NCBI RefSeq assembly: GCF_002872335.1
Contig: NZ_NJAG01000045.1
Coordinates: 186,001-250,000 of the forward strand
Direction: 5' to 3'
DNA: 64,000 nt
From: Siphonobacter sp. BAB-5405
GTDB taxonomy: Bacteria > Bacteroidota > Bacteroidia > Cytophagales > Spirosomataceae
Below are positions 2,010 to 44,780 of this stretch, one piece after another. Position 1 is the first letter of the stretch, and each line of letters starts with the position of its first letter. The position numbers were made by a program, and so were the translations under genes. The notes under the pieces are model-generated. The model saw nothing but the letters and a program-made list of their open reading frames with translations, searched no databases and was not told where the DNA came from.

Positions 2010-5000
2010 TTATTCGTTTCGCCCTTCCAATACCCCCTCACTTAACGCATACAGTTGTTGCAAGGCCTGTACCGTTTCCGGCGAAGGTTCCTCCCACAAA
2101 TTTCGTTGGGCGGCTTCGAGCAGACGTTCGGTAATAGCCTGCAAGGCCCACGGATTGCTTTCCCGCAGGAAATCCTGGAGTTGCGGGTCGAGGGCGTAGG
2201 TTTGGGCTACTTTTTCATACATCCAGTCTTCAAGAACCTGGGCCGTGGCGTCGTACCCGAAGAGGTAATCGACCGTGGCCGTCAGTTCCAGACCGCCCTT
2301 GTAGCCGTGGCGTTGCATACTTTCCAGCCATTTCGGATTCACCACCCGCGAACGGAATACCCGCAGAGCCTCTTCCTTCAAATCCCGCACCACGGGTCGG
2401 GCGGGGTTTTGCGAGTCGCCGAAGTAATGCTTGGGCTGTTGTCCGGTCAGACTACGAATGGTTGCGATCATGCCGCCGTGGAATTGCAGGTAATCATCAC
2501 TATCGAAAATGTCGTGTTCGCGGTTATCCTGGTTGTGCAGGGCCACTTCTACGCCCGAAAGCCGCTGCTGAAATTCCTGTCGGGCATCTACCCCGCCGCC
2601 TGTTTGCCGTAGGCGTATCCACCCCAATTCAGATAAGCTTGAGCGAAATCCGCTTCATTCTGCCAGTTTTTTTCGTTAATCAGGGGCAAAATCCCTGCTC
2701 CGTAACTGCCTGGTGCCGCTCCAAAAATGCGGTACGCCGCCCGTTCCTCCGCCTCTTCCAGCGGCAAATCCTGTAGTTGACTTAAATCCTTTAAGTAATG
2801 CTTGCGGACAAAATTCTGATCCTCGGGTTCGTCCAAGGCGATGACCAGCTGTACGGCTTCATCCAGTAAATCAATCAAATGCGGGAAGGCATCGCGGAAG
2901 AACCCACTGATCCGGGTCGTGACGTCGATTCGGGGTCTTCCCAAGTCCGTCAGCGGAATGATTTCAACGCCCGTAATTCGCCGGCTTTCGGTTTGCCAAA
3001 CGGGTTGCACGCCCAGCAGGGCCAGAATTTCGGCCACGTCATCGCCGTGCGTTCGCATGGCACTCGTTCCCCAGATGCTGATGCCTACACTTTCGGGGTA
3101 AGTTCCAGATTCCCGCTTATGTCGTTCGAGTACCTCGCGGGCCAGTTGCTGACCCACTTCCCAGGCCGCCTGTGAGGGTAGGGCACGGGGATCGACGGCG
3201 TAAAAATTGCGTCCGGTCGGGAGGATATGAGCCATACCCCGGGTAGGAGCCCCACTCGGACCGGCGGGTACATACCCACCCGAAAGACCGTGTAAAAGGT
3301 TGGAAATCTCCTCGTCCGTTCGGGTCAGGTTTGGTACCAGCTGTTTGCACACGTACTGTAATACGGGTCGCAACTGATCCAGCTGGGCCGGAGGAAGCTG
3401 GAAGGTTTCAAAGAGTACTTCATCCAGTCGCGACGGCTGGAACCGATGTTGTAGCAATACCCGAAACAGGTGATTACTCATCTCATCGATCACTTCCAGA
3501 GCATCCGCCGCCGTAATGAGGGGACGGCCCGCCCATTCCTGAAAATGCGGGTCAACCTGCGGCAGTTTCTGTCCTTTGTGTTCCTGTAAACGTGAAAAAT
3601 CAAGGTTGAACAGGCCCGCAATCGTCTCCGGTAAGCTGGCGAAATCCTGATTGGGCAGGCGAGTCATGGCCTGTAATAAATCAACCAGAGCGTCGCCTTC
3701 GGGTACTTGCCCCAGGGTGTGCAAGCCATTGCGAATCTGAGCCGCTCCCAGTTCGCAGAGGTAGCCGTCAATGTCTTCAATCAAGTGAGCAATGTCCTTG
3801 CCTGCCATCTCCGTCAGCGTTACGGGTACGCCTTCGGGCGTCAGTTCATCGTCCCAGTCATGTTTGTGATCGCCATGGTCGCGACTCAGCAGGGCCGACA
3901 AATCCGTATCCAGATTCGTCCGCTGAATCAACTCCCAGATCTGCCGCTGGAGTAGGGGGAGTTTAGCCGGATCTAGCATTTCCACCTGATAATATTCATC
4001 CACCAGTTGCGTGAGCTGAGCCAGTTCACCGTACTGATCGGCGGTAGTCATGGGCGGCGTCAGGTGGTCAACAACAACGGCGTGGCCCCGGCGTTTGGCC
4101 TGCGACCCTTCGCCGGGATCGTTGATAATGAAGGGATAAAACAGGGGTAAATCACCCAGAATCGCATCGGGAAAACAGTTTTCCGACAAGCCCATCCCCT
4201 TGCCCGGCAGCCATTCCAGCGTACCGTGCTTGCCCACGTGCACCAGAGCATCGGCTTTCCAGACATCCCGGAGCCAGCGGTAAACGGCGTAGTAATGGTG
4301 CGTCGGAGCCAGGTCCGGCTGGTGATAAATGGCATCGGGGTCCATGCCATACCCCCGGGGAGGCTGAAGCAGTACGATGGCATTTCCCAGCTCGATACCC
4401 GCGAATGAAATTTTTCCTTCGTGTACATAGGTTTCGCCCGGCGGCGGTCCCCATTGCTTGAGCATTTTCTGCTGGAGGGGTTCAGGTAACTCCTTCAACC
4501 ACTGTGTGTATTGCGAATTAGATACGCGTCCTACTGCCTGTGCAAGTTGCTCGGGTGTCAAATACGTTTCATCGTACGAACAGCGGTCAATGAGCTGGTG
4601 AATCAGTTCCGTGCCCGTGGCCGGCAGATTCTCCAGCGAATACCCTTCATCCTGCATGGCCTGTAACATCGCCAAGAGGGAAGCCGGAGCGTCGAGTCCG
4701 ACGGCATTCCCAATCTGGGAAGCTTTGGCGTTGGAATTGGTAAAAATGAAAGCGACCCGTTTCTGAGCGTTCGGCGTATGCCGAAGGCGGGCCAGTCGCT
4801 GAGCGATTCCGGTTACCCGCTCGATGCGGTCGGGGACAGGCTCATACGCTGTGGTATCGCCGTTTTTTTCCTTGAAAGAAATGGGAACGGTGATGATACG
4901 CCCGTCAAATTCGGGAATGGCGACGTTCATGGCCGTATCCAGGGGTGTCAGGCCGCGACTCGATAATTCCCAGGGCACACGACTCATTCCACTCGTGATG

Positions 5001-6265
5001 GCCTGTAAAATCGGTACATCGAGCTGACGTAAAGCCCCGGACGAACCCTGCTGATCGGCATCCGTCATGGCATAGGAAACCGTATTGATCAGCGTATCAA
5101 TGGCCACGCCTGTCGTTCGATCAAAAAACTGAAAGGCCTGCGGGCAGCCCGTTTCGGGATGAATCGCTTTCAAAGAAGAAGTATACACTGCCAGGGCATT
5201 GATCTGACGATCTTCCAGCGAACGAATCAAGGCATCCACGAAAGCCGTGTTCCCACTGATCCAGTGCGAACGGTAAAAGGTAATTCCGACCGTCGGTTGC
5301 CGGGGATCGTAGTGCTTTTGCCAGTCGCTCAACTCCGCATTTTCGGGTAAGTCGGGATGGTAAAGGCCGTGTTCGGGCAGCGTCTGGGGCAGGTCGGCTC
5401 CGTACCCCGTCAGCAACAGGTGATCGGAAAGGTAGTACAGCAGCGACGTAAAATTCCCCGCTCCGCCCGCCTGCACGTAGGACAAGGCATCCTGCTGAAT
5501 GGCTGGAGATACCGTAGAAACCGCCGCAAATTCGGGGTTTAGTTCGCCCGTACCGCTGATGACAATCAAATGCTGCTGATTCTGCTGGGCCCGCTTCACC
5601 AGTTCATGAAAACCCGGTACGCTACTGGGCCGTCCGTGAATTCGCAGAATAATCACCTGAGCCGCTCCAATCTCCCGTTCCAGCAACTGAGCCATGTGGG
5701 CTTCGGTCTTGATTGCCAGTAAGCTTAGGCCCAGTACTTTGGGAAAATCGTCCGGTAGACTGATCCGGCTGAGGGTCAGCAAATCCGTATCGGCGTGCGT
5801 CAGAAACACGATTCCATCGGTGGGCGAGGGCGTTTCCCCGCGTAGGGTGGCCGTTTCCGAGCCTTTCCAGGTGTAATACTGAAAGACAAATTCGGCCAGT
5901 TCGGCGGGCGGACTCAGGAAGCAGTCGGCGGCCAGCATGCGGTCAATGTAATCGAAAATGGCTTTGATGTGCCATTCGCTATTGACCGAATGAAACCAGA
6001 CCGAATGCCCGTCGAAAAGCAACGTAGCCACGTTCGCCAGCGTGCAGGGGCCCAGGCAGCCGCCTTTGGTCAGGTGAACCTGATTCCGCATTTTTCGGCG
6101 GAGCCATTCGTTTTTGTAGACGTCAACCAGTACCGGGGCGTACCCGCGGTCGGTTCGCCCGCAGCAGCAGGCATTATAGCAGTAGGACAAATGTCCCCGC
6201 CGCTGGACCAGATTAATGGCTTTTCCGTCGGGTCGCATGACCCGTTGCCGTTTGATTTCAGCCAT
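2010..6265 (-). CDS. cobN: Cobaltochelatase large subunit CobN with N-terminal ferredoxin-like domain; one-base frameshift near its 3' end
   Basis: CobN is the large subunit of the ATP-dependent chelatase that inserts cobalt into hydrogenobyrinate a,c-diamide. The hallmark [16 protein letters not shown] segment is near residue 680. Residues 1-110 are an extra domain with Cys29, Cys33-35, Cys70 and Cys74 (GGCLGPC), resembling thioredoxin-fold 2Fe-2S ferredoxins. The frame starting at 6265 stops at 2588 after [13 protein letters not shown], while the next frame continues with GVDARQEF...HNQDNREHD, the normal CobN C-terminus, to 2010. One G missing from the run at 2591-2594 (CCCC on the plus strand) restores a protein of about 1,415 residues. 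The start codon overlaps the end of cobB by 8 bp, so the two are translationally coupled. The small chelatase subunits are not in this window. Confidence 0.92.
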
Positions 6266-7592
6266 GTTGATGCGTGGAAAGGGAAGTAGAAAGCGTACGA
6301 AGCAGATCCGTTAGCCACGTTGGGCCATCGCCCCAGTATAAGTGTACGTACGAAGCCAGGGTATTTTGTACGCGGTAGATTTTAGTCCCGACTTCCAGAC
6401 CCCGGGCATTGCGGACCGGAGCCAGGGAGAATAGTTCTTCCGCTTCCTGTAAGGTAGAATAATGAAACTCGTGACCTTTCAGTAAGGTATTTTGAAACTG
6501 AATTTGTCGATAACCCAGGGTTAGCTTCGCGTGTTGCAGACTCGTTGAAAAGGGAAACACCCCCGCCATTGGATAGCTGTGACCTTCCGCATCGGTTAAC
6601 TGCCGGCCCAGGTACATCAACCCGCCACATTCCGCGTAGGCGTATCCGCCGTTCTGGCAATACGCTCGCACGCTTTCCCGAAAGGACGTATTGGCACTCA
6701 GGGCCTGAGCGTGCAATTCAGGATAGCCACCGGGCAGGTACAAGAGATCCGTTTCGGGCAGCTCGCTATCCCGTAGCGGACTTACGTACTGTACTTCCGC
6801 CAGGGCTTCCAGCACCGCTAGATTTTGGTGATACTGAAATGAAAACGCTTCATCCCGGGCGATAGTCACCTTACAGGCCGTACGATGGGACAAGGCTTGA
6901 GCTAGGGGACCCTCTTCATTGGTTTTAGTAAGGGCTAAGAGCCGATCCAGGTCAATGCTCTGCGGAATCTTTTGAGCGATGGCTTCGATGATTCGCTCGT
7001 AGTCGATCTCTGAAGACGTACGTAACCCGAGGTGCCGCGATGGAATGGTAAAATCGGGATGGGTAGGGAAATAGCCCACACAGGGCAACCCTACATCCTG
7101 ACAGGCTTCTTCCAGAAAACGGAAATGCGAGGCCGTCTGTACACCATTGAAAAGGACGCCGGCGATTTGTATGCCCGCGTAAAAATGCCTGAAGCCGTAC
7201 AGGAGTGGTGCTGCCGAGTACGCCATTGCCTTGGCCTGTACCACCAGGATGATGGGTATACCCAGGCATTCGGCCAGCGAGGCCGTACTCGCCTGCATGC
7301 GGTCGGCTCCGTCGAACAGGCCCATCACGCCTTCGGTAACGGCCACATCTACCCCGGAACAGTACGTTTGATACAGCGTTTTCAGGTGTTCGGGGGAGGC
7401 CATAAACAGATCCAGATTGATACTGGCTCGTCCGGCGGCCGTGCGATGGTGCTGACTATCAATGTAATCCGGCCCGCACTTGAAGGGCTGAACCGTTAAT
7501 CCCCGGTGTCGCAAAGCCCGCAACAGACCCAGCGTAAGCGTCGTCTTGCCCGAACCACTGTGCGGAGCCGCAATGAGAAAATGACTGGCCAT
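6258..7592 (-). CDS. cobB: Cobyrinate / hydrogenobyrinate a,c-diamide synthase
   Basis: Glutamine- and ATP-dependent amidation of the corrin ring at side chains a and c, the step before cobalt insertion in the aerobic pathway. I chose ATG 7592 over the upstream in-frame ATG at 7625 because the protein then begins [18 protein letters not shown], placing the P-loop where the family has it. The N-terminal half is the dethiobiotin-synthetase-like ATPase domain ([15 protein letters not shown]). The C-terminal half is a class I glutamine amidotransferase with nucleophile Cys in [13 protein letters not shown] and a final HEFHYS segment. It is first in a two-gene operon with cobN, downstream of a cobalamin riboswitch. 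Confidence 0.95.
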
Positions 7593-7704
7593 GAAAGAAT
7601 AAGCTGGCCTTCCTGAAAAAGACAAAAAAGAAGAATCGGAGACGTGTACACCCCTCCAGCAAACCTACTTCTGATTTCCGCCTTAGTCCGTGAAAGCGTG
7701 TAAC

Positions 7705-34480: not shown

Positions 34481-34903
34481 TTAAAAATATCCCCGCCCCA
34501 CATTCGAGTAGGTTACTTTCCATTTCCCCTTGTTACGGTTAAAATACAGGTATTTGTAGCCGTCTTTTAGTGGAAAGTAAGCACAGTCATTAGTCATTTG
34601 AATCCTAATGAGCTCACCGGGTTGTGCTTTAATAGAAAAGCTTTGGGCCATTCCGGTGGTCAGGTCACTAATCAAATGTCCGGTAATGGCTACCCGGTTT
34701 CCCACGGTAATCGATACGGAGTCATTAAAAAACATCTCGAACGTCAAAACCCGTGAGGAATCGCGGTGAAAAGGCTCGGAGGCCTTCTGGTTGTCCACCT
34801 CTTCGCTGACGGTCTTGCACGTCACTTCATTCTCTTTTTTGCAGCCGAGCATGCCCAGGAGAAAGGCACTCAAAACAAGAAGCGGAATACAAAGGAGTCT
34901 CAT
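34481..34903 (-). CDS. Small lipoprotein of unknown function, last gene of the sigma/SusCD/peroxidase run
   Basis: Start at ATG 34903 gives MRLLCIPLLVLSAFLLGMLG followed by Cys, a lipobox; the 18-residue N-terminal extension to 34957 is unlike a signal. 140 residues. After Cys21 the mature part is beta-rich and includes a second pair of Cys (VTCKTVSEE and TNDCAYFPL), with a Tyr-rich tail (GYKYLYFNRN). No family is recognised. It lies 84 bp after the di-heme peroxidase gene on the same strand. It could bind a ligand or support the peroxidase; that is inference from position. Confidence 0.7.
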   Translation of the reverse strand: MRLLCIPLLVLSAFLLGMLGCKKENEVTCKTVSEEVDNQKASEPFHRDSSRVLTFEMFFNDSVSITVGNRVAITGHLISDLTTGMAQSFSIKAQPGELIRIQMTNDCAYFPLKDGYKYLYFNRNKGKWKVTYSNVGRGYF

Positions 34904-34987
34904 TGCAGATACGTTTGCTCTAAGACCCTTTGTCCGGCCTAAGCGTTGGAAGAGCAAAAAAAAATGGGCAGTCGAACCACCTGTTCG

Positions 34988-36109
34988 CTACTGAGGCAAC
35001 TCAAACGGATTGATTTTCTGGGAAGGAACGGAAATCGTTTTCAGAAACGCTTCCAGTTGAAGCTGCTCCGTTTGGGTGAGATGGAGTTTCCGGAGCAGGG
35101 GTGAGGTGACAGGCCGCAGTCGTTCGTCTACGACTACCCTTCGCTGAATGGGCGAGGGGTTGCCCAGGTTGTAGTATTCAATAACATCCCGGAGCGTCGG
35201 GAAATTGCCGTGGTGCATCCAGGGGCCGGTACGAGCCACTTCCCGCAGCGAAGGCGTACGAAATTTGCCGACGTCCTGAGGATCACCCGTCTGGAGATAC
35301 TTTCCAAAGTCCTGCTGTGAAGAGCCGTACAGGGTTTGCCCGTCGTTGTGAAACTGATTGTCTGAAAATAAAGGTGAGTTGTGGCAGTTGATACAGCGGG
35401 CTTTCGTGCGAAATAAATGCAAGCCCATCACTTCATCGTCGTTCAGCAGCCGGGCATTTCCCTGAACAAAACGATCAAAACGGCTCGGCGGACTGACAAC
35501 CGTTCGTTCAAACGTGGCAATGGCCTGCTGAATGCGTTTGACCGTCACTTCTTCCGTACCAAAGGCGGCGGCGAAATGCGGCCGGTACCCTTTTACCTTG
35601 CGAATATTTCGCTGCATGGTTTTCAGATTCTGAGCCATTTCCAGCGGATCCTGCACCGGGAAGTTCACCTGTTCTTCCAGACTCGCCGCCCGCCCATCCC
35701 AGAATAGCCGCTGGTAATGGCCCGTATTGAGAATGGTCATGGCGTTTCGTTTGCCGTTCTGGCGATTGTGACCGAACGATAAATGCCGGCCATCGCCCCA
35801 GCCCAGCTCCGGATCGTGGCAGGAGGCACAGGCAATTTGTTTGGATTGCGAAAGTCGCGGATCAAAAAAGAGCAATTTTCCCAACTTCGCTTTCGCTTCC
35901 GAATACGGGTTGGAAGCCGGATGGCTAACCTTGCCCAGCACCCCGATTTCCTGAAACGTACCTACGACGGAAGAATCAATCTCCGGTTTAGGCCAGCGGG
36001 AAACATCTCCACTGCTGTACAAGTGCCGAAGTTCATCCACCGAATACTCGTGCTGGAAGGCCGTAAGTCCGATGAAAAAGGCTACGGAAAGCAAAAAGAA
36101 AAATCGCAT
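34988..36109 (-). CDS. Di-heme cytochrome c peroxidase family protein, periplasmic
   Basis: 373 residues with an N-terminal signal (MRFFFLLSVAFFIGLTAFQ, no lipobox Cys). Two c-type heme sites: CASCH near residue 94 and CINCH near 240. Other family marks: FWDGRAASLEEQ near 140, IATFERTVVSP near 197, and a TGPWMHHGNFPTLRDVIEYY segment near 300, typical of the CCP/MauG superfamily. It would reduce H2O2 or oxidise a bound substrate using electrons from a cytochrome. Position inside a SusCD operon, rather than an oxidative-stress operon, makes a role in substrate or metal handling plausible. Confidence 0.92.
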   Translation of the reverse strand: MRFFFLLSVAFFIGLTAFQHEYSVDELRHLYSSGDVSRWPKPEIDSSVVGTFQEIGVLGKVSHPASNPYSEAKAKLGKLLFFDPRLSQSKQIACASCHDPELGWGDGRHLSFGHNRQNGKRNAMTILNTGHYQRLFWDGRAASLEEQVNFPVQDPLEMAQNLKTMQRNIRKVKGYRPHFAAAFGTEEVTVKRIQQAIATFERTVVSPPSRFDRFVQGNARLLNDDEVMGLHLFRTKARCINCHNSPLFSDNQFHNDGQTLYGSSQQDFGKYLQTGDPQDVGKFRTPSLREVARTGPWMHHGNFPTLRDVIEYYNLGNPSPIQRRVVVDERLRPVTSPLLRKLHLTQTEQLQLEAFLKTISVPSQKINPFELPQ

Positions 36110-36197
36110 AGGCAGTCTACTGAACTTCCCGAAAACCCATGAAAAGCCTTCGGGAAGTAATAAAGAATCGCTACGGTTAAATGCAGTACGAGGCTAC

Positions 36198-36812
36198 TTA
36201 ATTGAGACTTAATGCGTCCACGCTGATTTTGTAGGTACGCGAGACTTTCGCCGCACCGCCAATGGTCGTTTCGTTGAAATGCACCACCAGATCCATCACT
36301 TTGGTTTGGGTATCATACGTACCCTCTCCGCTAATACCAATTTTGAACGGAGCACCGTCTTTACGCGAAATGGTCACGTCCTGAGTTAGTACTTTGACTT
36401 TACCCTTCGTGGCACCAACGGCATCCGGAAAAAATTGCAGGACTTTTTCAGCGTTAATTTTTGCTTCCTTGATGTTGTTGGTACCAATCTGAGTCGCGTA
36501 CAGGGTAACCATTCCAAAAAGATTAACGCCGCTGTCTACCACGTTGGGGTTCGTGAAACCAATGTAGGTAGGATCACTAGCCGGAACCGTTGAAAAGTGG
36601 GAAGCAATCCGGTTGGTCCATTTTCTTGCGGTCGAATCGTAGCGATACACGTAGGGCTGGTAATACTGATCGGTTTTATGGAAGACCGAAACGACATCTT
36701 TCGAAGCCTGCTCTTCAGCTGGTTTTTCGGGTTCGATGGAATTATCCTTCGAGCAACTGTTCAACAATAAAAGGCCGGCCATCAGGAGGGAAAGGAAGCG
36801 AAACAACTTCAT
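36198..36812 (-). CDS. Lipoprotein of unknown function in the SusCD operon
   Basis: 204 residues with a lipoprotein signal, Cys20 in MKLFRFLSLLMAGLLLLNSC, then an acidic linker (SIEPEKPAEEQ) and a mostly beta protein ending TYKISVDALSLN. It follows susD by 42 bp and precedes the peroxidase. Its slot matches where SusE/F-type surface lipoproteins sit in polysaccharide loci, but no carbohydrate-binding or HmuY-type signature was recognised. Probably surface- or periplasm-facing. Confidence 0.75.
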   Translation of the reverse strand: MKLFRFLSLLMAGLLLLNSCSKDNSIEPEKPAEEQASKDVVSVFHKTDQYYQPYVYRYDSTARKWTNRIASHFSTVPASDPTYIGFTNPNVVDSGVNLFGMVTLYATQIGTNNIKEAKINAEKVLQFFPDAVGATKGKVKVLTQDVTISRKDGAPFKIGISGEGTYDTQTKVMDLVVHFNETTIGGAAKVSRTYKISVDALSLN

Positions 36813-36853
36813 GGTGAATGTAGGATTTGTAGTAAGGAATTGAAATGAACGAA

Positions 36854-38314
36854 TTAATACCCCGGATTCTGGGAAATGAGCGGGTTGACCAGCACCGTTC
36901 GGGCGGGCAGGGGAAGGATGTAAAAGTGCGAGGGATACGGCAAACTACACCGCAAACCCTGGCAATCCTGTCGAAGCAGCGGCTGGTGCGTACGTGAAAG
37001 GTCTAGCAGTAGGAAGCCTTCAAAACACAACTCTTTCCGGCGTTCGAGCCAGATCAGCTTTAGAGCCACCTCGGCATCAGTGCCCTGCAAGGGTACCGCA
37101 GCCGTATCGGCCCGCGTCCGGATGGTATTCAGATCCTGGTAGGCCTGGCTCAACTGGCCCAGGCGGGCGGCTGCTTCGGCCCGGATCAGGTAGAGTTCGG
37201 ACAAGCGGATGACTTTTACACCCGTTGCATTGGCCTCTCCCCGGGCGTACTTTTTACTGAAAGAATATTCGCTACCCGCCATGGTAAGGGTGTTGTACAA
37301 GTGGGCTTTGCCCCGCACGTCGGTGGGCGAGTACAGTTGCAATAAGTCGTTGGTGGCGGCCATTTGCAAATAGGTAGTAGAAACACCCGCCGTGGTCGCA
37401 TCGAAGTAACTGCCCAGGCTCGTACCCGTATAATTGGCCGGAACAGAGACTTCGAAAATGGCTTCCGACGTATTCTTCTGTGACCAGGATTCCACGTAAT
37501 TCTGATTTGTATACAGGCGATAGGACGCACTGGTAATGACGGCGTTGGCCTGCTTATACGCCTGCTGGTAATCGGCTTTGTGGAGGTACACCCGGGCCAG
37601 CAGGGCCCGTACTACGGAGGGGTTCATGTAGTTTTTGGTACTGCCCGAACTCCAGATCGCCGTACTGTTTTCGAAAAGTACCAGCGATTGTTCCAAATCC
37701 GCAAGGATTGCTGCGTAACATTCCGCCACACTGGCTCGGGGACGCTGCGATTCCGTCACTAAAATGGGTTTCAAATTCAGGATGATACCCGGATGCGACG
37801 CATCTGCTGTATACGTATAGGGCTGGGCGTACAACTGGACCAGATCGAAATGAATCATTGCCCGCAGTGCCATTGCTTCGGCTACGAGCCGCGTTCGTGT
37901 ACGTTCGGAGCCATTAGGAATCTGCGGAGTCCGGGTAATAATGTTATTCAAGTTGTTGAGAATTGCGTACAACTGGGCGTAGGTACTGTTCATGCTCCCG
38001 GCGTCGGGATCGGCCGTAAAGTTGTACACGTCGCCTAGGATCTGCCGGTTGGTCGCCGAATACTTGAGATTGCCCCCTGCGAGGTCGGGATAAAACGTCC
38101 GGTTTCCGTTCAGGTAATTACTTTCAAACAGCGAACGATAGGCTCCGCTCAGGGCCACCGTAGCCGACTCAATGTCCTGAAAGGTTTCTTCCAGTGAAAT
38201 TTTATTTTGAGGCTCTTTATCAAGCAAAGCCTGACAACTGCCCAATACCGCCAGCAAGCCCAGGACTCCCAGTTTTCGCACGAGGCGTTTGTACGATGGT
38301 ATGAAAGAAAACAT
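36854..38314 (-). CDS. SusD/RagB family nutrient-binding outer membrane lipoprotein
   Basis: 486 residues with a lipobox signal ending LGSCQ near residue 28. The mature protein starts LLDKEPQNKISLEETFQDIE as in most SusD members, then the TPR-type helices (AMALRAMIHFDLVQLYAQPY) and the C-terminal VIRLSELYLIRAEAAARLGQ followed by TIRTRADTA and IWLERRKELCFEG. The usual RagB C-terminus is present. It forms the lid on the adjacent SusC pore. The ligand is unknown; SusD proteins are best known for glycans, but some partner metal-linked receptors. Confidence 0.94.
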   Translation of the reverse strand: MFSFIPSYKRLVRKLGVLGLLAVLGSCQALLDKEPQNKISLEETFQDIESATVALSGAYRSLFESNYLNGNRTFYPDLAGGNLKYSATNRQILGDVYNFTADPDAGSMNSTYAQLYAILNNLNNIITRTPQIPNGSERTRTRLVAEAMALRAMIHFDLVQLYAQPYTYTADASHPGIILNLKPILVTESQRPRASVAECYAAILADLEQSLVLFENSTAIWSSGSTKNYMNPSVVRALLARVYLHKADYQQAYKQANAVITSASYRLYTNQNYVESWSQKNTSEAIFEVSVPANYTGTSLGSYFDATTAGVSTTYLQMAATNDLLQLYSPTDVRGKAHLYNTLTMAGSEYSFSKKYARGEANATGVKVIRLSELYLIRAEAAARLGQLSQAYQDLNTIRTRADTAAVPLQGTDAEVALKLIWLERRKELCFEGFLLLDLSRTHQPLLRQDCQGLRCSLPYPSHFYILPLPARTVLVNPLISQNPGY

Positions 38315-38321
38315 GATGCGT

Positions 38322-41300
38322 TTACAAACTAAGATTTAAACCTACACTGAGCGTACGGGCTTCGGGAAAGGCAAAGCGGGTTTCTCGTACGCCATTACGT
38401 CCCGTGGGACTTTTGTCCTTGTAGCAGTACGCAACGTTGGTAACATTGAGGAAGGCGGAAACACCCTGCATCCGAAGCCGTCTGCTCAAGGCGGAAGTCA
38501 GACTGTAATGGAGCGTAACGTTGGAAAGCTTCAGGTGCGTCAGATCCTGTAGGTACCGGGAAGAGTTGGTTACCAGTCCTTTTTCAATTAACAACTTCGA
38601 GACGGGTGCTACATCCCCGGGTTTCTGCCAGCGATCCAGCAGATTGACACTCATGTTGGAATGCTGTATGTTCCTTCCATCGCCCATAAATTGGGTGGGT
38701 TCCATCCGATTTTCGCCCAGGTTATATAGAATATTGAGCGTCAGAGAGAATTGCTTGTAGCTCAGTTCGTTCACCCAGCCCCCCTGAGCTTTGGGCAGGC
38801 GATCGCCCAGCACGACGTAACTCGAACGGGGATAGGTGCGAATGGTGGTTCGGTCCACGACAGAGCCATCGGGAGCGTAGAATTGCTCATTACCCGTCTC
38901 CGGATTCACGCCCGCCCAGCGAATCCCCCAGATCGCCGTGGTACTGTAGCCTTCCCGAATGGCGGCGTTGGCCTCGCTCGCAGTAGAGGCCGGGTCGCTG
39001 TACACGGAAGTAAAACCCTGATTGTACTGCAAAATCCGGTTGCGGTTAAAACCCGTCGTCAGCGTCGAACGCCATTTAAAGTGCTTGCTCTGAATGAAGT
39101 GCGTTTGCAGCGTGATATCAAAACCCTGATTACGCATATTAGCGGTATTGTAGGAAATGCTACCATAACCCGTTTCCAGCGGAACTTCTACGTTGGAAAT
39201 CAGGTCGTGGATCGTATTCTGATAATATTCCGCCGTAATTGAAAGCCGGTCAAACAGCGTAAGATCCAGTCCCAGGTTGAGTTTCAGGTTTTTTTCCCAG
39301 CTTAAATTGGGGTTGGGAGCGGAAGAAGTTTCCGGTACGGCAGCTACGTAGCCGTTATAATTGCCATAACTAAAATTGTACAGACCCCGGGCGGCATACG
39401 AGCCAATGCGGGAATTGCCCGTTGAGCCGTAGCTGGTTCGAAGTTTCAGAAAAGTAAATGCCGGATGATTTTGCAAAAACGGCTCCTTGCTGATAATCCA
39501 GCTCAGACCGACGGCGGAATTAAGGGCCAGGTTGAAATCACTGCCAAACATGGACGACTGATCCGCCCGGATGCTGCTGGTAAACAGGTACTTTTTCTTA
39601 AAATCGTACGTAGCCTGAGTGTAATACGAAACAGTTGCATTTTCCTGTCTGGAAGAAGAAGCGGACTGGCGGGTAGCCTGGCTGATCTCCCGAATGCGAT
39701 CGTAGGTAAAGTTCGTGCCTGATCCGGCCAGTAACACGGTTCGCTGGTCCTGGGCTTCCAGTCCTGCAATCACCTGCACGGAATGCTTCTGTTGGAAGGT
39801 TTGGGTATACGTACCCTGCAGATAGCCCAGCCAGCCCAGGGTCTGCCGATCAAAAATCTGTAACTGTCCGCCTTTGGTACTACCCGTCGCGTTTTTGGCT
39901 GAATCGTAGCTTACATCCTTACTCTGCGAAAAATTAGTTCCGATGGTTCCCGAAATCGTAAAGTTCGGGGCAACCGCGTAGTGCAGATTGGCGTTGCCAT
40001 TAAAAGCCAGTGCATCGGTAACGGCCTCATTTTGAGCCAGCACGGCTAAGGGGTTGGGCACACCCAGTAAGGTCGTAAAGTTCCCTTCCGCATCGTAAGG
40101 CGACAGGTTAGGGGGGAGGTACGCGTTGTTTTTGAAGTTATCGAGTCCGCTTTTTTTAATAATGGTCGGTGATAGTGTTACGCCTAGTTTAAGTTTCCGA
40201 TTCAGGATACTATTTACCTTCAAGCTCAGATTGATCTGCTGCAAATCATTCTTCAGTGCACTGGCCTGCTGGTAACGATAGCCCGTTGAAAAGCGGTAGG
40301 TCGTGCCTTCCTTACCCCCCGAGACATCCGCATTGATCGCCGTGTAGGAAGCATTCCGGGTGGTAAGGCCCAGCCAGTCGGTATCAATTGTAGAGCTACC
40401 GGCCTGGGCGGCGGCCTGCGATTCCGTGAAACCACTGTTGAGCAAGGCTTCCCGTTTGAGTGTAAAATACTCCGGACCACTCAACAGCTTCATGCGGTTG
40501 ATGAACGTTGACACGCCCCGGGAGACGGAGACGTGAGCCGCCGTCCGGCCCGCTGAGCCTGCTTTGGTGGTAATGATGATGACTCCGTTGGCCGCATTGG
40601 CTCCGTAAATGGTAGTCGCCGAGGCATCCTTAAGAATGGAAATAGAGGCAATATCCTGCGGATTGATACCCGCGATGGGGTTAATCAGCGTTTCACCGGA
40701 GAAGATTTGAGCGGCATCGCCGCGTTCCTGCTCCATGATGGGGATACCATCGATGACAAACAGCGGTTGCGTCGAGGTCGTTCGCGTACCACCAACGGGT
40801 GTAAGCGTACCCTGACCACGAATGTTGATTTTCACGGGTGTACCCAGTTGCGTCGTCGGTTCCACGTATACGCCAGCGGCGAGTCCTTCCAGCATTTTGT
40901 CGAAGCTCTCAATGGGTCGATACGGTTGTAATTCTTTCGCGTTGATCTGCGAAATGCTACCGATTACCTCCTCTTTGGGTGTGCCGTTGGTATAGGCATT
41001 GGTGATGACCAGTTCATTCATTTGCCGGGATTCGGGTTCCATTTCGATATCCAGCGTGGACGATGAACCCAGGGGCTGGGAAAGGATCGGCTTCATGCCC
41101 ACCATCCGGAACTCCAGCCGGGCCTGGTTCAGGTCCACGGCCGAAATCGTACCCGTGTAGTAGCCTTCCGCATTGGTAACGGCCAGCACGCGTCCCGTTG
41201 ACGAACGCACCGATACCCCCGGTAAGGGTATTTTCTCGGACCGATCCATGACCCGGCCGCTCACGCGTCGCTGGGCCTGCGTCCGTACCAGAATGCGATT

Positions 41301-41573
41301 GCCTTTTTGCAGAAAAGCCAGATTGCTGAGGCTGGACAGGTCCCGTAAAATGACCGGGAACGGCCCCGTACTGTTGAAATCAAACCGGCGTTTAAGGGGA
41401 ATATCCTGGGCGTCGTAGTGAAACTGAACGCCCGCCTGTTTTTCGATTTCTGAAAAAATAGTAGTCAGGCTGGCTTGCTGGAGTCGTAGGGTAAGCTGCT
41501 GGGCTCCCGCCTGATTCCATATGCCAAAACTAATCCAAAGGGCTACAAGCAGCCCAGGTACCCGTGTAATCAT
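38322..41573 (-). CDS. SusC/RagA family TonB-dependent receptor with STN domain
   Basis: 1,083 residues. After a signal peptide comes an STN domain (about 25-100), which in sensor receptors contacts the FecR anti-sigma protein, then a carboxypeptidase-like beta domain, the plug (KINIRGQGTLTPVG, PLFVIDGIP, ISILKDASATTIYGANAANG) and a large beta-barrel ending RTLSVGLNLSL. A TonB-box-like stretch would be NELVITNAY, not the usual D-E-V-V-V-V-G-Y-G. Its start overlaps the fecR stop by 4 bp (ATGA), so the two are translationally coupled. The ligand is unknown. Confidence 0.95.
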   Translation of the reverse strand: MITRVPGLLVALWISFGIWNQAGAQQLTLRLQQASLTTIFSEIEKQAGVQFHYDAQDIPLKRRFDFNSTGPFPVILRDLSSLSNLAFLQKGNRILVRTQAQRRVSGRVMDRSEKIPLPGVSVRSSTGRVLAVTNAEGYYTGTISAVDLNQARLEFRMVGMKPILSQPLGSSSTLDIEMEPESRQMNELVITNAYTNGTPKEEVIGSISQINAKELQPYRPIESFDKMLEGLAAGVYVEPTTQLGTPVKINIRGQGTLTPVGGTRTTSTQPLFVIDGIPIMEQERGDAAQIFSGETLINPIAGINPQDIASISILKDASATTIYGANAANGVIIITTKAGSAGRTAAHVSVSRGVSTFINRMKLLSGPEYFTLKREALLNSGFTESQAAAQAGSSTIDTDWLGLTTRNASYTAINADVSGGKEGTTYRFSTGYRYQQASALKNDLQQINLSLKVNSILNRKLKLGVTLSPTIIKKSGLDNFKNNAYLPPNLSPYDAEGNFTTLLGVPNPLAVLAQNEAVTDALAFNGNANLHYAVAPNFTISGTIGTNFSQSKDVSYDSAKNATGSTKGGQLQIFDRQTLGWLGYLQGTYTQTFQQKHSVQVIAGLEAQDQRTVLLAGSGTNFTYDRIREISQATRQSASSSRQENATVSYYTQATYDFKKKYLFTSSIRADQSSMFGSDFNLALNSAVGLSWIISKEPFLQNHPAFTFLKLRTSYGSTGNSRIGSYAARGLYNFSYGNYNGYVAAVPETSSAPNPNLSWEKNLKLNLGLDLTLFDRLSITAEYYQNTIHDLISNVEVPLETGYGSISYNTANMRNQGFDITLQTHFIQSKHFKWRSTLTTGFNRNRILQYNQGFTSVYSDPASTASEANAAIREGYSTTAIWGIRWAGVNPETGNEQFYAPDGSVVDRTTIRTYPRSSYVVLGDRLPKAQGGWVNELSYKQFSLTLNILYNLGENRMEPTQFMGDGRNIQHSNMSVNLLDRWQKPGDVAPVSKLLIEKGLVTNSSRYLQDLTHLKLSNVTLHYSLTSALSRRLRMQGVSAFLNVTNVAYCYKDKSPTGRNGVRETRFAFPEARTLSVGLNLSL

Positions 41574-42565
41574 TGCTCCGCTCTTAAATAAATCGTACGC
41601 TGATGGATGCTATAAGTCAGGTGTTTAGAGAAGCAAATAGTTTCAAGGACCTGGCGAACGTCCTCCCGGTGGAAGGTGCCCGTATACTGCCAGGGTTGGG
41701 TTGGATGTTGGAGAATCAGTTGGTAGCCGTAGGTTCGCTCCATGGCTTCCGCAATGGTTTTAAAATCAGCATTTCTGAAAACCAGATAGTCGTCCTTCCA
41801 GCCGCTGACGGCCAGCGAATCGAAGCTGGTTTGCCTGAGCTGCTGCCGGGCTAGCTGGTACACGGCCTGCTGGCCCGGCAGCAATTGAAGCTGTTGATGA
41901 AGCGTATCTTCCAGTTGTACTTTTCCTTTGAGTAAAGCCACCGAAATCTCCGACTTTTGTGGGTAAGCTGACACGTTAAATTCAGTTCCGAGTACCCGGG
42001 TTGTTAACCCGCCGGTACGCACCAGAAACGGTTTCTGGGCATCATGGTGGATGGAAAAGTAGGCTTCTCCCTCAAGTCGAATTTCGCGGGTGTTTGAAAC
42101 AAAAGCCTTAGGGTAATGAATGGTACTGGCGGCGTTCAGAATCACCGTACTGCCGTCCGATAAGGTCAGTTTGGTTTTTTTGCCATTCGGGTTCGAATAA
42201 TGTACCCATTCCGTAGGCGGTGTTTTCGTACGGGTTTCGCGGTTTACGTACCAAAAACCCACTCCCAGACTTACTACCAGCAAAATCGAAGCGGCAATGA
42301 GCCAGGGTTTTCGTTGGGGCAACTGTACCGTCGGGGTTTCGTCGATGTAGGCCTGTAAACGGTCTTTTTCCTGTTCAAACTCCAGGGCGGGCAATCGTCC
42401 GGTCAGCAGATCAAGCAGGCTTTCGGCCGCTACGACTTCATCGAGCTTCTCCGGGTGCGTGCGTATCCAATGCTCCCAGAAGGCAACGGCCTCCGGGTCG
42501 CTTTTCAGATAGTAAGCCAGAAAGGATTCGTCGGCGGCAAAGTCTTCGGCCTGGTAATGATCCAT
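41570..42565 (-). CDS. fecR-like: FecR family anti-sigma regulator
   Basis: 331 residues: a cytoplasmic N-terminal part, one membrane segment at about 86-106 (WLIAASILLVVSLGVGFWYV), then the periplasmic FecR domain (GKKTKLTLSDGSTVILNAAS, LEGEAYFSI) and a C-terminal STN-binding-like module (FKTIAEAMERTYGYQL). It would hold the neighbouring ECF sigma factor inactive until the SusC receptor reports ligand. It follows the sigma gene after 140 bp and couples into susC by overlap. Symbol used in family sense only. Confidence 0.93.
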   Translation of the reverse strand: MDHYQAEDFAADESFLAYYLKSDPEAVAFWEHWIRTHPEKLDEVVAAESLLDLLTGRLPALEFEQEKDRLQAYIDETPTVQLPQRKPWLIAASILLVVSLGVGFWYVNRETRTKTPPTEWVHYSNPNGKKTKLTLSDGSTVILNAASTIHYPKAFVSNTREIRLEGEAYFSIHHDAQKPFLVRTGGLTTRVLGTEFNVSAYPQKSEISVALLKGKVQLEDTLHQQLQLLPGQQAVYQLARQQLRQTSFDSLAVSGWKDDYLVFRNADFKTIAEAMERTYGYQLILQHPTQPWQYTGTFHREDVRQVLETICFSKHLTYSIHQRTIYLRAEQ

Positions 42566-42705
42566 GGTTGACTGCGTTTGAAAACCAGTGCAGGAAAGCA
42601 GTCATTTTTACCGGTGGATATTGAATTATTTTTAAAATATCAAGACAAAGTGCTGTATAACAGGCTATTGGATAGGTAAATTTTTAGAAAAGAAAAGTAC
42701 AAGCC

Positions 42706-43275
42706 TTACCGTACCAGAAAGAAAAGGAGTAGGCTCATCAGAACCTGTACGTGTTTGCGAAGCGTTTTCAGGGCTTCGGATATCTGATTGTATACGGTGC
42801 GGGGCTGCACCTGTAGCTGCTCGGCAATCGACTCGTAGCTGAGTTGTTCGTAGAACCGAAGGCGGATCATTTCCCGCTGGCCGGGGGTAAGTTTGGTTAG
42901 CAGCTGCTGCATGCGAAGGCGGTTGCCCTCGTCGGTTTGCTGGTCCATGAGCACCTCTTCGTAGGAGCGTTCGCTGGGCTGAGGCGTCGTCACCTGAAGC
43001 GAATCGAAGGAAAACGATTGCTCTTTCAGCAATTTCCGTTTGAGGTAGGTAAATAGATAGGACTTGATCTGTGTTACTTCCGGCAAGTGAAATCGGCGGT
43101 CCCACAATTCACAAAATAATTCGTGAATGGCATCTTTCACGAGTTCGCGGTCCGTACTAACCCGGCAACCGAACGTATACAAGGCCTGGTAATAAGACTC
43201 GTAGAGGCTTAGAAAAGCGGCTCGGTTGCCTTTTCGGAGTTGATTCCAGTAGGTATGTTCAGTCGTGTCAGCCAT
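42706..43275 (-). CDS. ECF RNA polymerase sigma factor (FecI-like / Bacteroidota type)
   Basis: 189 residues. Region 2 (AAFLSLYESYYQALYTFGC, then DAIHELFCELWDRR) binds the -10 and core enzyme; region 4 is a helix-turn-helix near the C-terminus (LTPGQREMIRLRFYEQLSYE, VQPRTVYNQISEALKTLRK). It is paired with the FecR anti-sigma gene and would transcribe this SusCD operon. On the minus strand TACTTTTG (43286-43293) is a perfect -7 element only 10 bp from the ATG, so the mRNA would be nearly leaderless. A Fur-like palindrome overlaps this promoter. Confidence 0.94.
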   Translation of the reverse strand: MADTTEHTYWNQLRKGNRAAFLSLYESYYQALYTFGCRVSTDRELVKDAIHELFCELWDRRFHLPEVTQIKSYLFTYLKRKLLKEQSFSFDSLQVTTPQPSERSYEEVLMDQQTDEGNRLRMQQLLTKLTPGQREMIRLRFYEQLSYESIAEQLQVQPRTVYNQISEALKTLRKHVQVLMSLLLFFLVR

Positions 43276-43285
43276 TGAATGGCCG

Positions 43286-43293
43286 CAAAAGTA
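43286..43293 (-). promoter_or_regulatory. Consensus -7 element of the sigma gene
   Basis: Read on the minus strand this is TACTTTTG, an exact TAnnTTTG match. The -33 position is AT-rich and lacks TTTG, as expected for an activator-dependent or repressed promoter. Confidence 0.6.
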
Positions 43294-43300
43294 GTGAAAT

Positions 43301-43321
43301 TATTTATAATCATTATAAATA
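43301..43321. promoter_or_regulatory. Fur-box-like 10-1-10 palindrome in the sigma gene promoter
   Basis: The 21 bp are perfectly symmetric around C43311. The inner 15 bp, TTATAATCATTATAA, match the 7-1-7 Fur consensus TGATAATnATTATCA at 12 of 14 positions. It lies in the spacer/-33 region of the sigma promoter, where a repressor would block it, and about 110 bp upstream of the divergent PepSY gene's promoter. Confidence 0.6.
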
Positions 43322-43329
43322 GAAAACAG

Positions 43330-43351
43330 ATCTGCCCGGATCCGGGCAGAT
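43330..43351. promoter_or_regulatory. 22-bp perfect GC-rich palindrome
   Basis: ATCTGCCCGGATCCGGGCAG with its final AT is a perfect loopless palindrome (11 + 11). AGAAAA and TTTTCT lie just outside. It lies next to the Fur-like site in the divergent promoter region. It could be a second operator or a terminator-like hairpin insulating the two promoters. Confidence 0.55.
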
Positions 43352-43428
43352 TTTCTGGTGAGAAGCGGCTCTTTTACGTGGCCGCCGGGCTAAATATAGG
43401 CAGGATTAGTAAAATAAAGGTTATTTAA

Positions 43429-43461
43429 TTTGGACTAAATACAAATAGCGTTCTAGTTTTG
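43429..43461 (+). promoter_or_regulatory. Promoter of the PepSY gene
   Basis: TTTG (43429-43432), 21 bp, then TAGTTTTG (43454-43461), an exact TAnnTTTG -7 element with a slightly long spacer. It lies about 97 bp before the ATG chosen at 43558. Confidence 0.55.
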
Positions 43462-43557
43462 TAGCTGTTGAGAAAACAGACGCACGTTTCCCGACGCACG
43501 ATCCCATTCTCTAAGGCCCGGTTTATACCCATCTTAAATTTCTTTGTACAACCAATG

Positions 43558-44780
43558 TCCCTGTTTCGAAAAGTTAACAACTGGCTCCATTTGTGGTTAG
43601 GACTCATTTCCGGTGTCATTGTCTTCATTGTCTGTATCACCGGATGTATCTGGGTGTTTAACGATGAAATTACCGCCCTGCTGGAGCCCAACAGTCGCAT
43701 TGAAAAACAGAACAAACCCGTTCTCAAACCCTCGGAACTCAAGCAAATCGCCTCAAACGTGTTTCCGGGTAAACGCGTCGTGTACGCCATTTACCGCATG
43801 GGTCGGGCTGCCGAGGTTTCGCTGGGCGAAGGACGTCGGGGTGATCACACCGTCAGTTTGAATCCCTATACGGGTGAAGTACTGGGCAAGAAGGTGCTCG
43901 AAAAAGATGGAACGGACTTCTTCCGCTTCATTCTCAACGGTCACCGGGCGTTGTGGCTGCCGTATCCCATTGGTCGGCCCATTGTTAATTACGGTACCCT
44001 CGTGTTTGTGGTGTTGCTGATTACGGGACTGATCTGGTGGTATCCCAAGAAATGGAATAAAAGTACGATAGATAAGAGCTTCAAAATAAAGTGGGGAGCT
44101 TCATTCAAACGCCTTAACCTTGATCTGCACAACGTACTCGGCTTTTACTCGTTACTATTTTTACTGGCCATTGCCATGACGGGTATGGTATACGGCATTG
44201 AATGGTACAGTAAAGGCTTGTACTGGGTTACTTCGGGAGGCGATCATCTGCCGCCTTTTGCCCGGAATAGCTCAGATACGTTACAAGCCCAAAAATTCTA
44301 CACCGTGGATCAGGCGATGGACAAGGCCTGGAATACGGTCATCAGCCGTCATCCCGAAGCGGAAGGATTTTTCTACAGCTATCCAAGTCCTAAAGACGCC
44401 AAAGCTCCGATTTCCATCACCATTTACCCGAGCCGTACGCATTTCTACGATAATCAGGGGTACGCCTTCGATCAACATACACTCAAGGAATTTCCGAAAG
44501 ATAAAATCTATGGCAAGCCCTTTGCTGAAGCTTCCACCGGGCTCAAATCCGCCGTATGAACTATGATATTCACGTGGGAAGTGTACTGGGCTTTCCGGGA
44601 AAAGTACTAGCCTTCCTGGCCAGTTTAATTGGAGCTTCCCTGCCGGTTACGGGTTTTCTGGTCTGGTGGAACCGCAAAGGTTTTGGTAAAGGGAAGGGTA
44701 AGAAAAAAGCGAGTGGTGACCGTACATTGCGTCCGGCGAATGCCACCCCGGCCGCCGGCCGACGTTTAAACCCGTCATGA
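43558..44780 (+). CDS. PepSY-associated TM helix protein (iron-uptake-type), split by a one-base frameshift
   Basis: Start chosen at ATG 43558 (MSLFRKVNNWLHLWLGLISG), the usual N-terminus of the PepSY_TM family (PF03929); the 30 residues upstream in frame are not conserved. Four membrane segments flank a periplasmic part; the family has NGHRALWLP near residue 150 and LHNVLGFYSLLFLLAIAMTG near 220. The frame stops at 44559 after TGLKSAV while the next continues MNYDIHVGSVLGFPGKVLAF, the family's last membrane helix. One A missing from AAA at 44545-44547 restores KIRRMNYDIHVG. Relatives accompany siderophore and heme receptors and may reduce ferric iron. Confidence 0.87.

Follow-up and report, generated by a model that had tools for sequence, protein, structure and literature searches.

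A SusCD locus of Siphonobacter with a predicted Fur-type operator and a MauG/MbnH-like di-heme enzyme, a putative iron-linked uptake system

The window analyzed here is a 64-kb stretch of the 6.49-Mb genome of Siphonobacter sp. BAB-5405. On its minus strand, between positions 34481 and 43275, the genes for an extracytoplasmic function (ECF) sigma factor, FecR, SusC, SusD, a 204-aa lipoprotein, a di-heme cytochrome c peroxidase (CCP) and a 140-aa lipoprotein follow each other, and a PepSY_TM gene is placed divergently (Table 1). The first six genes form a conserved core, which we consider likely to encode a cargo-sensing SusCD system that is repressed by a Fur-type regulator and imports an iron-bearing compound, the cargo or a partner being oxidized in the periplasm. 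The locus is assembled from known kinds of parts and is not a wholly new kind of system; in a literature search, no description of this gene set was found.

The promoter of the sigma gene carries a perfect 21-bp palindrome, TATTTATAAT-C-ATTATAAATA, whose 7-1-7 core, TTATAATGATTATAA, matches the Fur consensus TGATAATNATTATCA in 12 of 14 positions. Both features had been described in the original prediction and were confirmed, as were the seven minus-strand genes and the divergent PepSY_TM gene (open reading frames verified, families assigned by Pfam and NCBIfam) and, from the coordinates, the 4-bp overlap between susC and fecR. From the orthologous promoters a 19-bp box, ATTTAkAATNATTmTAAAT, was derived, which is present with 0-3 mismatches in 10/10 sigma promoters examined. 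In the window, positions 43302-43320 are the sole site with up to 3 mismatches to this box, and no dinucleotide-shuffled version of the promoter reached it, so that the palindrome goes beyond what is expected by chance. The sequence TAnnTTTG is the consensus of the Bacteroidota -7 element, and it follows the box by 7 or 8 bp in all ten sigma genes, the background frequency of such placing being 0.2%. This places the box at the expected position of RNA polymerase binding, which is where a repressor site would be anticipated. An initial, narrower motif, TWATAATNATTATWA, showed poor specificity (18 sites vs 10 in the control) and was replaced by the box from the orthologues. Adjoining the operator there is also a perfect 22-bp palindrome, ATCTGCCCGGATCCGGGCAGAT, at 43330-43351, which is terminator-like and was not seen in the promoter of the sister species.

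The distribution of the box was evaluated by pattern searches of genomes, with the reversed motif as control. With up to 2 mismatches, 9 sites were obtained in this genome vs 2 for the control. Besides the one of the locus, they precede three TonB receptors similar in size to siderophore receptors, a second sigma/FecR locus, and a gene pair, DUF4198 first and Fur-family second; one of the boxed receptors presents a tandem pair of boxes and has a ferritin gene on the other side. The remaining sites lie before nuoA (called by eye) and before a small gene. In three other genomes, the counts against the control were 13 vs 1 and 24 vs 6, both enriched, and 16 vs 12 in the third; the boxes of these genomes were near TonB receptors, AraC-type regulators, and fumarase-like and hemA-like genes, called by eye from their first residues. 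Five Fur-family matches occur in this genome, and we infer that Fur, rather than a member of another family, would bind the box.

Relatives of the locus and of its genes were searched across Bacteroidota in samples of the family (222 genomes), the class (395 genomes) and the phylum (296 genomes), and the core recurs in other Siphonobacter, in a second genus of the family and in a distant family of the class. The 204-aa lipoprotein is present in 6 of the 222 genomes of the family, spread over two genera, and the order sigma-FecR-SusC-SusD-lipoprotein-CCP is intact in these loci wherever the contig is long enough (the contig of G179 is short and covers no more than the last part of SusD plus the lipoprotein and the CCP). 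A profile search with the lipoprotein, in which weak matches at E>1e-4, covering mainly signal peptides, were ignored, extended the range to G250 and G312, from two further families of the order, and to a single distant genus of the class with five genomes, labelled Flavobacterium-like from the sequences alone. The five Flavobacterium-like loci present the six-gene order with a lipoprotein of ~490 aa; G250 and G312 have a reduced form, in which SusC is without neighboring sigma and FecR genes and the locus also encodes an ELWxxDGT-repeat protein and one more small lipoprotein, with the CCP gene divergent in G312. A sigma orthologue leads all 9 other loci that have the complete sigma-FecR core. 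The domain common to all versions of the lipoprotein is C-terminal, the larger ones adding N-terminal modules; it is rare (3/395 genomes of the class at E<=1e-5), and a CCP of one clade shares the locus with it in 13/13 genomes that yielded the domain. Two genes that had been regarded as parts of the system, those of the 140-aa lipoprotein and of the PepSY protein, were found besides the window in the sister species G177 only and not at other core loci; since both are confined to two sister species, they were dropped from the system.

The CCP presents an export signal, a full CCP_MauG domain and two CxxCH motifs, at residues 94-98 (C94/C97/H98) and 239-243 (C239/C242/H243), which together with Tyr313 are invariant in 13 orthologues. 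Classical bacterial CCPs have an axial Met at the electron-transferring heme. The enzyme of this locus departs from them, carrying instead Tyr313, which aligns with the known axial Tyr of MauG at residue 294 and with a Tyr of MbnH (6e1c). In the PDB, the best matches to the protein were classical CCPs and 6e1c, with MbnH ranking first for the C-terminal part, and the protein scores below the cut-offs of both MauG (TIGR03791, 219.9 vs 443.85 bits) and MbnH (TIGR04039, 223.6 vs 362.85 bits). In the phylum sample, a score gap isolates a clade of full-length proteins from 16 genomes with at least 405 bits, while other CCPs have at most 268 bits. This clade has a support of 100/100 in a maximum-likelihood tree, in which it includes members from SusCD operons and from TonB receptor-DUF4876-DUF6850-CCP operons, and CCPs that adjoin MbnP fall outside. 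In the 16 genomes, the CCP is found in a SusCD operon in six, in a DUF4876-DUF6850 operon in six, beside a TonB receptor in one and alone in three. The two DUF families were confirmed by Pfam in part of the operons, and in G642, G736 and G592 they were assigned by gene order, size and sequence appearance. One of the lone CCPs (L066, 9040-10164) has a box 47 bp upstream, which suggests iron control of the enzyme itself. In addition, MbnP-CCP pairs were observed in other genomes of Bacteroidota (L071, 8805-10563; L076, 9289-11119), one set with a TonB receptor; their CCPs belong to a different clade.

Published expression data are available for operons of the DUF4876 type in two Bacteroidales. 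The DUF4876/TonB receptor operon PG1019-22 of P. gingivalis is induced 21-215-fold by iron starvation, and BT3625-33 of B. thetaiotaomicron, which also encodes PepSY proteins, is induced 37-128-fold, both being among the most iron-starvation-induced operons of their genomes (PMC10434189). The iron link obtained from these operons runs via the DUF4876 partner, because PMC10434189 names no CCP in them. Furthermore, SusCD pairs induced by iron limitation, as those of our locus would be, have been reported in R. anatipestifer (B739_0095-0103; PMC5429918) and in F. johnsoniae (PMC8115612), although the gene set of B739_0095-0103 is unlike that of the Siphonobacter locus. The iron and Fur-box reading of the original prediction is thus strengthened by the box and its spacing, kept in distant orthologues, by the boxes that precede TonB receptors and a second sigma/FecR set, and by the sister CCPs in DUF4876-type operons; the iron link of the locus is well supported.

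The organization of the core is compact, with intergenic gaps of 140, -4, 7, 41 and 88 bp from sigma to CCP, and the ECF sigma and FecR genes directly precede the receptor gene. SusC scores above the TIGR04056 cut-off of 368.25 bits, and the adjacent SusD is also above the SusD_RagB cut-off. The original prediction had described the receptor as an STN-SusC: the SusC assignment stood, and of the STN domain only a weak, sub-threshold Pfam match to FecR_C was found at residues 29-96 (E 0.005), with no firmer STN signal.

The 204-aa lipoprotein gave no sequence match in Pfam, NCBIfam or the PDB and no Foldseek match at E<=0.001. Its AlphaFold2 model (pLDDT 84) is a small beta-rich barrel whose closest PDB shapes are avidin, designed barrels and nitrobindin, with Z values of 6-7.6 that correspond to background; we hypothesize from this model a ligand-binding barrel. 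A comparison with HmuY, MbnP and SusE/F had been suggested, and none of these identities was supported, there being no sequence-family match and, among the PDB shapes listed, only fold matches at background Z (best 7.6). The residues following the lipid Cys of the lipoproteins (SKDN, SKDD, SDSE) are similar to signals for surface export that have been reported in Bacteroidota; accordingly, the lipoprotein would sit beside SusD and is probably surface-exposed.

The following mode of operation can be proposed. Under iron sufficiency, a repressor, presumably of the Fur type, would occupy the palindrome, a site supported by computation, beside the TAnnTTTG promoter of the sigma gene, and under iron starvation the sigma factor and FecR would be produced. 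If the families behave in the manner of FecI/FecR/FecA, the presence of cargo on SusC/SusD would be signaled by the N-terminal domain of SusC via FecR, the sigma factor would be freed and the operon amplified. SusCD and the lipoprotein would capture a compound that carries iron, for which a ferric chelate or siderophore is the most likely candidate, and the secreted di-heme enzyme, with its axial Tyr of the MauG/MbnH type, would perform a peroxide-driven oxidation in the periplasm. The least certain step is the target of this oxidation, which would most likely be the imported chelate, with release of iron, and next the partner lipoprotein or peroxide itself. With low confidence, a ferric chelate is favored over heme as the cargo because the core has no recognizable gene for HmuY, a heme oxygenase or a heme ABC system; our confidence is likewise low as to what would be oxidized, the chelate, the lipoprotein or only peroxide.

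An unlikely but serious alternative is that the uptake is iron-regulated and the CCP is a peroxide scavenger only, which shields the periplasm from Fenton chemistry during iron loading and leaves the cargo untouched. The fold and the distal-side motifs agree with this explanation, since the enzyme retains the GH loop of classical CCPs (H114) and also E157, and the stand-alone CCP with its own box would be useful without SusCD. However, Y313 in the place of the CCP Met is the MauG/MbnH pattern, which is tied to substrate oxidation rather than to electron intake from a cytochrome, and the invariable association with a single, rare lipoprotein domain speaks for a specific partner.

It is rather improbable that the locus is an iron counterpart of MbnP/MbnH, in which the CCP would oxidize residues of the lipoprotein, a metal-binding site would be created or matured in this way, and the modified lipoprotein would be displayed beside SusCD. 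The combination of a receptor, a partner lipoprotein and an adjacent di-heme enzyme parallels MbnP/MbnH, MopE/SACCP and CorA/CorB (PMC3621798), where an outer-membrane or surface partner goes with a MauG-like di-heme enzyme, often near a TonB receptor; moreover, the lipoprotein domain is found solely beside these CCPs, and more distant CCPs of the sample adjoin MbnP. Those systems are, however, copper-tied, whereas the regulation here is of the iron type. The lipoprotein is not MbnP (PF20243) by Pfam, though PF20243 occurs beside other CCPs, the sister CCPs are in operons without the lipoprotein, and no Trp is invariant among the 13 lipoproteins, for which reason a kynurenine-type modification of the partner was discarded.

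An ordinary polysaccharide utilization locus carrying a peroxidase by chance is very improbable: SusC/SusD with sigma/FecR is the usual set of glycan loci in the phylum, and single carbohydrate-active enzymes (CAZymes) flank two core loci (GH65-like in G070, PL11 in G521), but no CAZyme lies within the conserved core of the window or of any orthologous locus examined, an iron box is located upstream, and the sister CCPs are in DUF4876 operons. The absence of a glycosidase from the operon, pointed out in the original prediction, extends to the whole conserved core, and the orthologous loci do not always carry polysaccharide-degrading genes, which would have spoken for glycans.

Several observations weigh against an iron importer with periplasmic oxidation. 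The box is not recognizable upstream of the SusCD locus of G250 or of two DUF4876 operons, no genes for siderophore synthesis, ferric reductase or an inner-membrane importer are present in the core, and the signaling domain of SusC is weakly recognized. In addition, a different MauG-like gene of F. johnsoniae, Fjoh_2477, is induced by phosphate depletion (PMC8115612), and therefore di-heme enzymes are not iron-specific.

With respect to other known systems, the locus resembles the ferric citrate model FecI/FecR/FecA in that a Fur-type operator lies ahead of the sigma and FecR genes and that a TonB-dependent receptor extended at its N-terminus comes next. It differs in that the receptor is a SusC with a SusD lid, accompanied by a lipoprotein and a di-heme enzyme, in an operon without an ABC importer. 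The TonB receptor-DUF4876-DUF6850-CCP operons contain the closest relatives of the CCP, also as the last gene of a TonB uptake operon, and have a box-like site upstream in 4/6 cases; theirs, however, is a classical TonB receptor with unrelated accessory proteins, not SusCD with a beta-barrel lipoprotein. Tentatively, it is possible that the MauG-like enzyme is a dedicated step of iron acquisition, which would oxidatively open a ferric chelate or activate a partner and would have been combined with SusCD in some lineages and with a classical TonB receptor in others, in most cases with a Fur-type box in control. With MauG the enzyme shares the two hemes and the Tyr at the position of residue 294, but there are no methylamine dehydrogenase genes in the locus and the CCP is under the equivalog cut-off.

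Table 1. Predicted features of the locus and its surroundings, in coordinates of the window.
Feature	Position	Strand	Evidence or remark
Divergent PepSY_TM gene, frameshifted near 44559	43468..44780	+	PepSY_TM E 2.2e-53; other frame 1.2e-9
Weaker second box, tentative	43428..43446		Upstream of PepSY gene; 4 mismatches, 3 in sister species
Fur-type operator (predicted), perfect 21-bp palindrome	43301..43321		Upstream of sigma gene; 19-bp box 43302-43320
Bacteroidota -7 promoter element TACTTTTG (TAnnTTTG)	43286..43293	-	8 bp downstream of box
ECF sigma factor (FecI-like), first core gene	42706..43275	-	TIGR02985 E 9e-28, Sigma70_r4_2 E 3.3e-14
FecR-type anti-sigma / signal transducer	41570..42565	-	FecR E 7.9e-19, FecR_C E 8.1e-15
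SusC/RagA TonB-dependent transporter, N-terminal extension resembling FecR_C/STN	38322..41573	-	TIGR04056 597.6 bits, Plug E 2.1e-15
SusD-like lipoprotein	36854..38314	-	SusD_RagB E 4.7e-22
204-aa lipoprotein, predicted small beta-barrel	36198..36812	-	No Pfam/NCBIfam match
Secreted di-heme c-type peroxidase, MauG/MbnH kind	34988..36109	-	CCP_MauG E 1.6e-56
140-aa lipoprotein, probably outside the system	34481..34903	-	Sister species only, 81% identical

Regarding the genes around the core, an 84-bp gap, which holds a weak terminator-like hairpin, lies between the CCP gene and that of the 140-aa lipoprotein; this lipoprotein gave no family match in Pfam or NCBIfam, and its structure model was unusable (pLDDT 50, from a two-row alignment). 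The divergent PepSY membrane protein of the original prediction exists as a gene and not as an intact reading frame; the frameshift may be a sequencing error or a recent inactivation, and the gene of the sister species (L007) is intact, with 420 aa. In three distant genomes, ELWxxDGT-repeat proteins adjoin the SusCD-lipoprotein-CCP genes (L051, 10279-12222; L052, 9963-11882; L055, 11391-12962); in two of these proteins a T9SS sorting tail was confirmed. Near the core of several Flavobacterium-like genomes there are a P-type (E1-E2) ATPase whose N-terminus includes a Cys/His-rich stretch (L053, 5000-7000, and neighbors) and also CzcABC-like efflux genes, which may be simple synteny. Elsewhere in the window, at 2588-7625, a CobN-type chelatase lies beside CobB/CbiA-like genes, possibly a corrinoid locus.

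Almost without exception, SusCD pairs are annotated as glycan importers, and the conserved set together with the box provides a sequence-level rule for iron-linked SusCD loci. The results also tie one MauG/MbnH-like clade to iron, and not to copper or amine metabolism, and the defined operator, located 7-8 bp ahead of TAnnTTTG, opens the iron regulon of these little-studied Bacteroidota to direct testing. Altogether, they suggest that importers of the SusCD type may also serve iron acquisition, with an oxidation step in the pathway.

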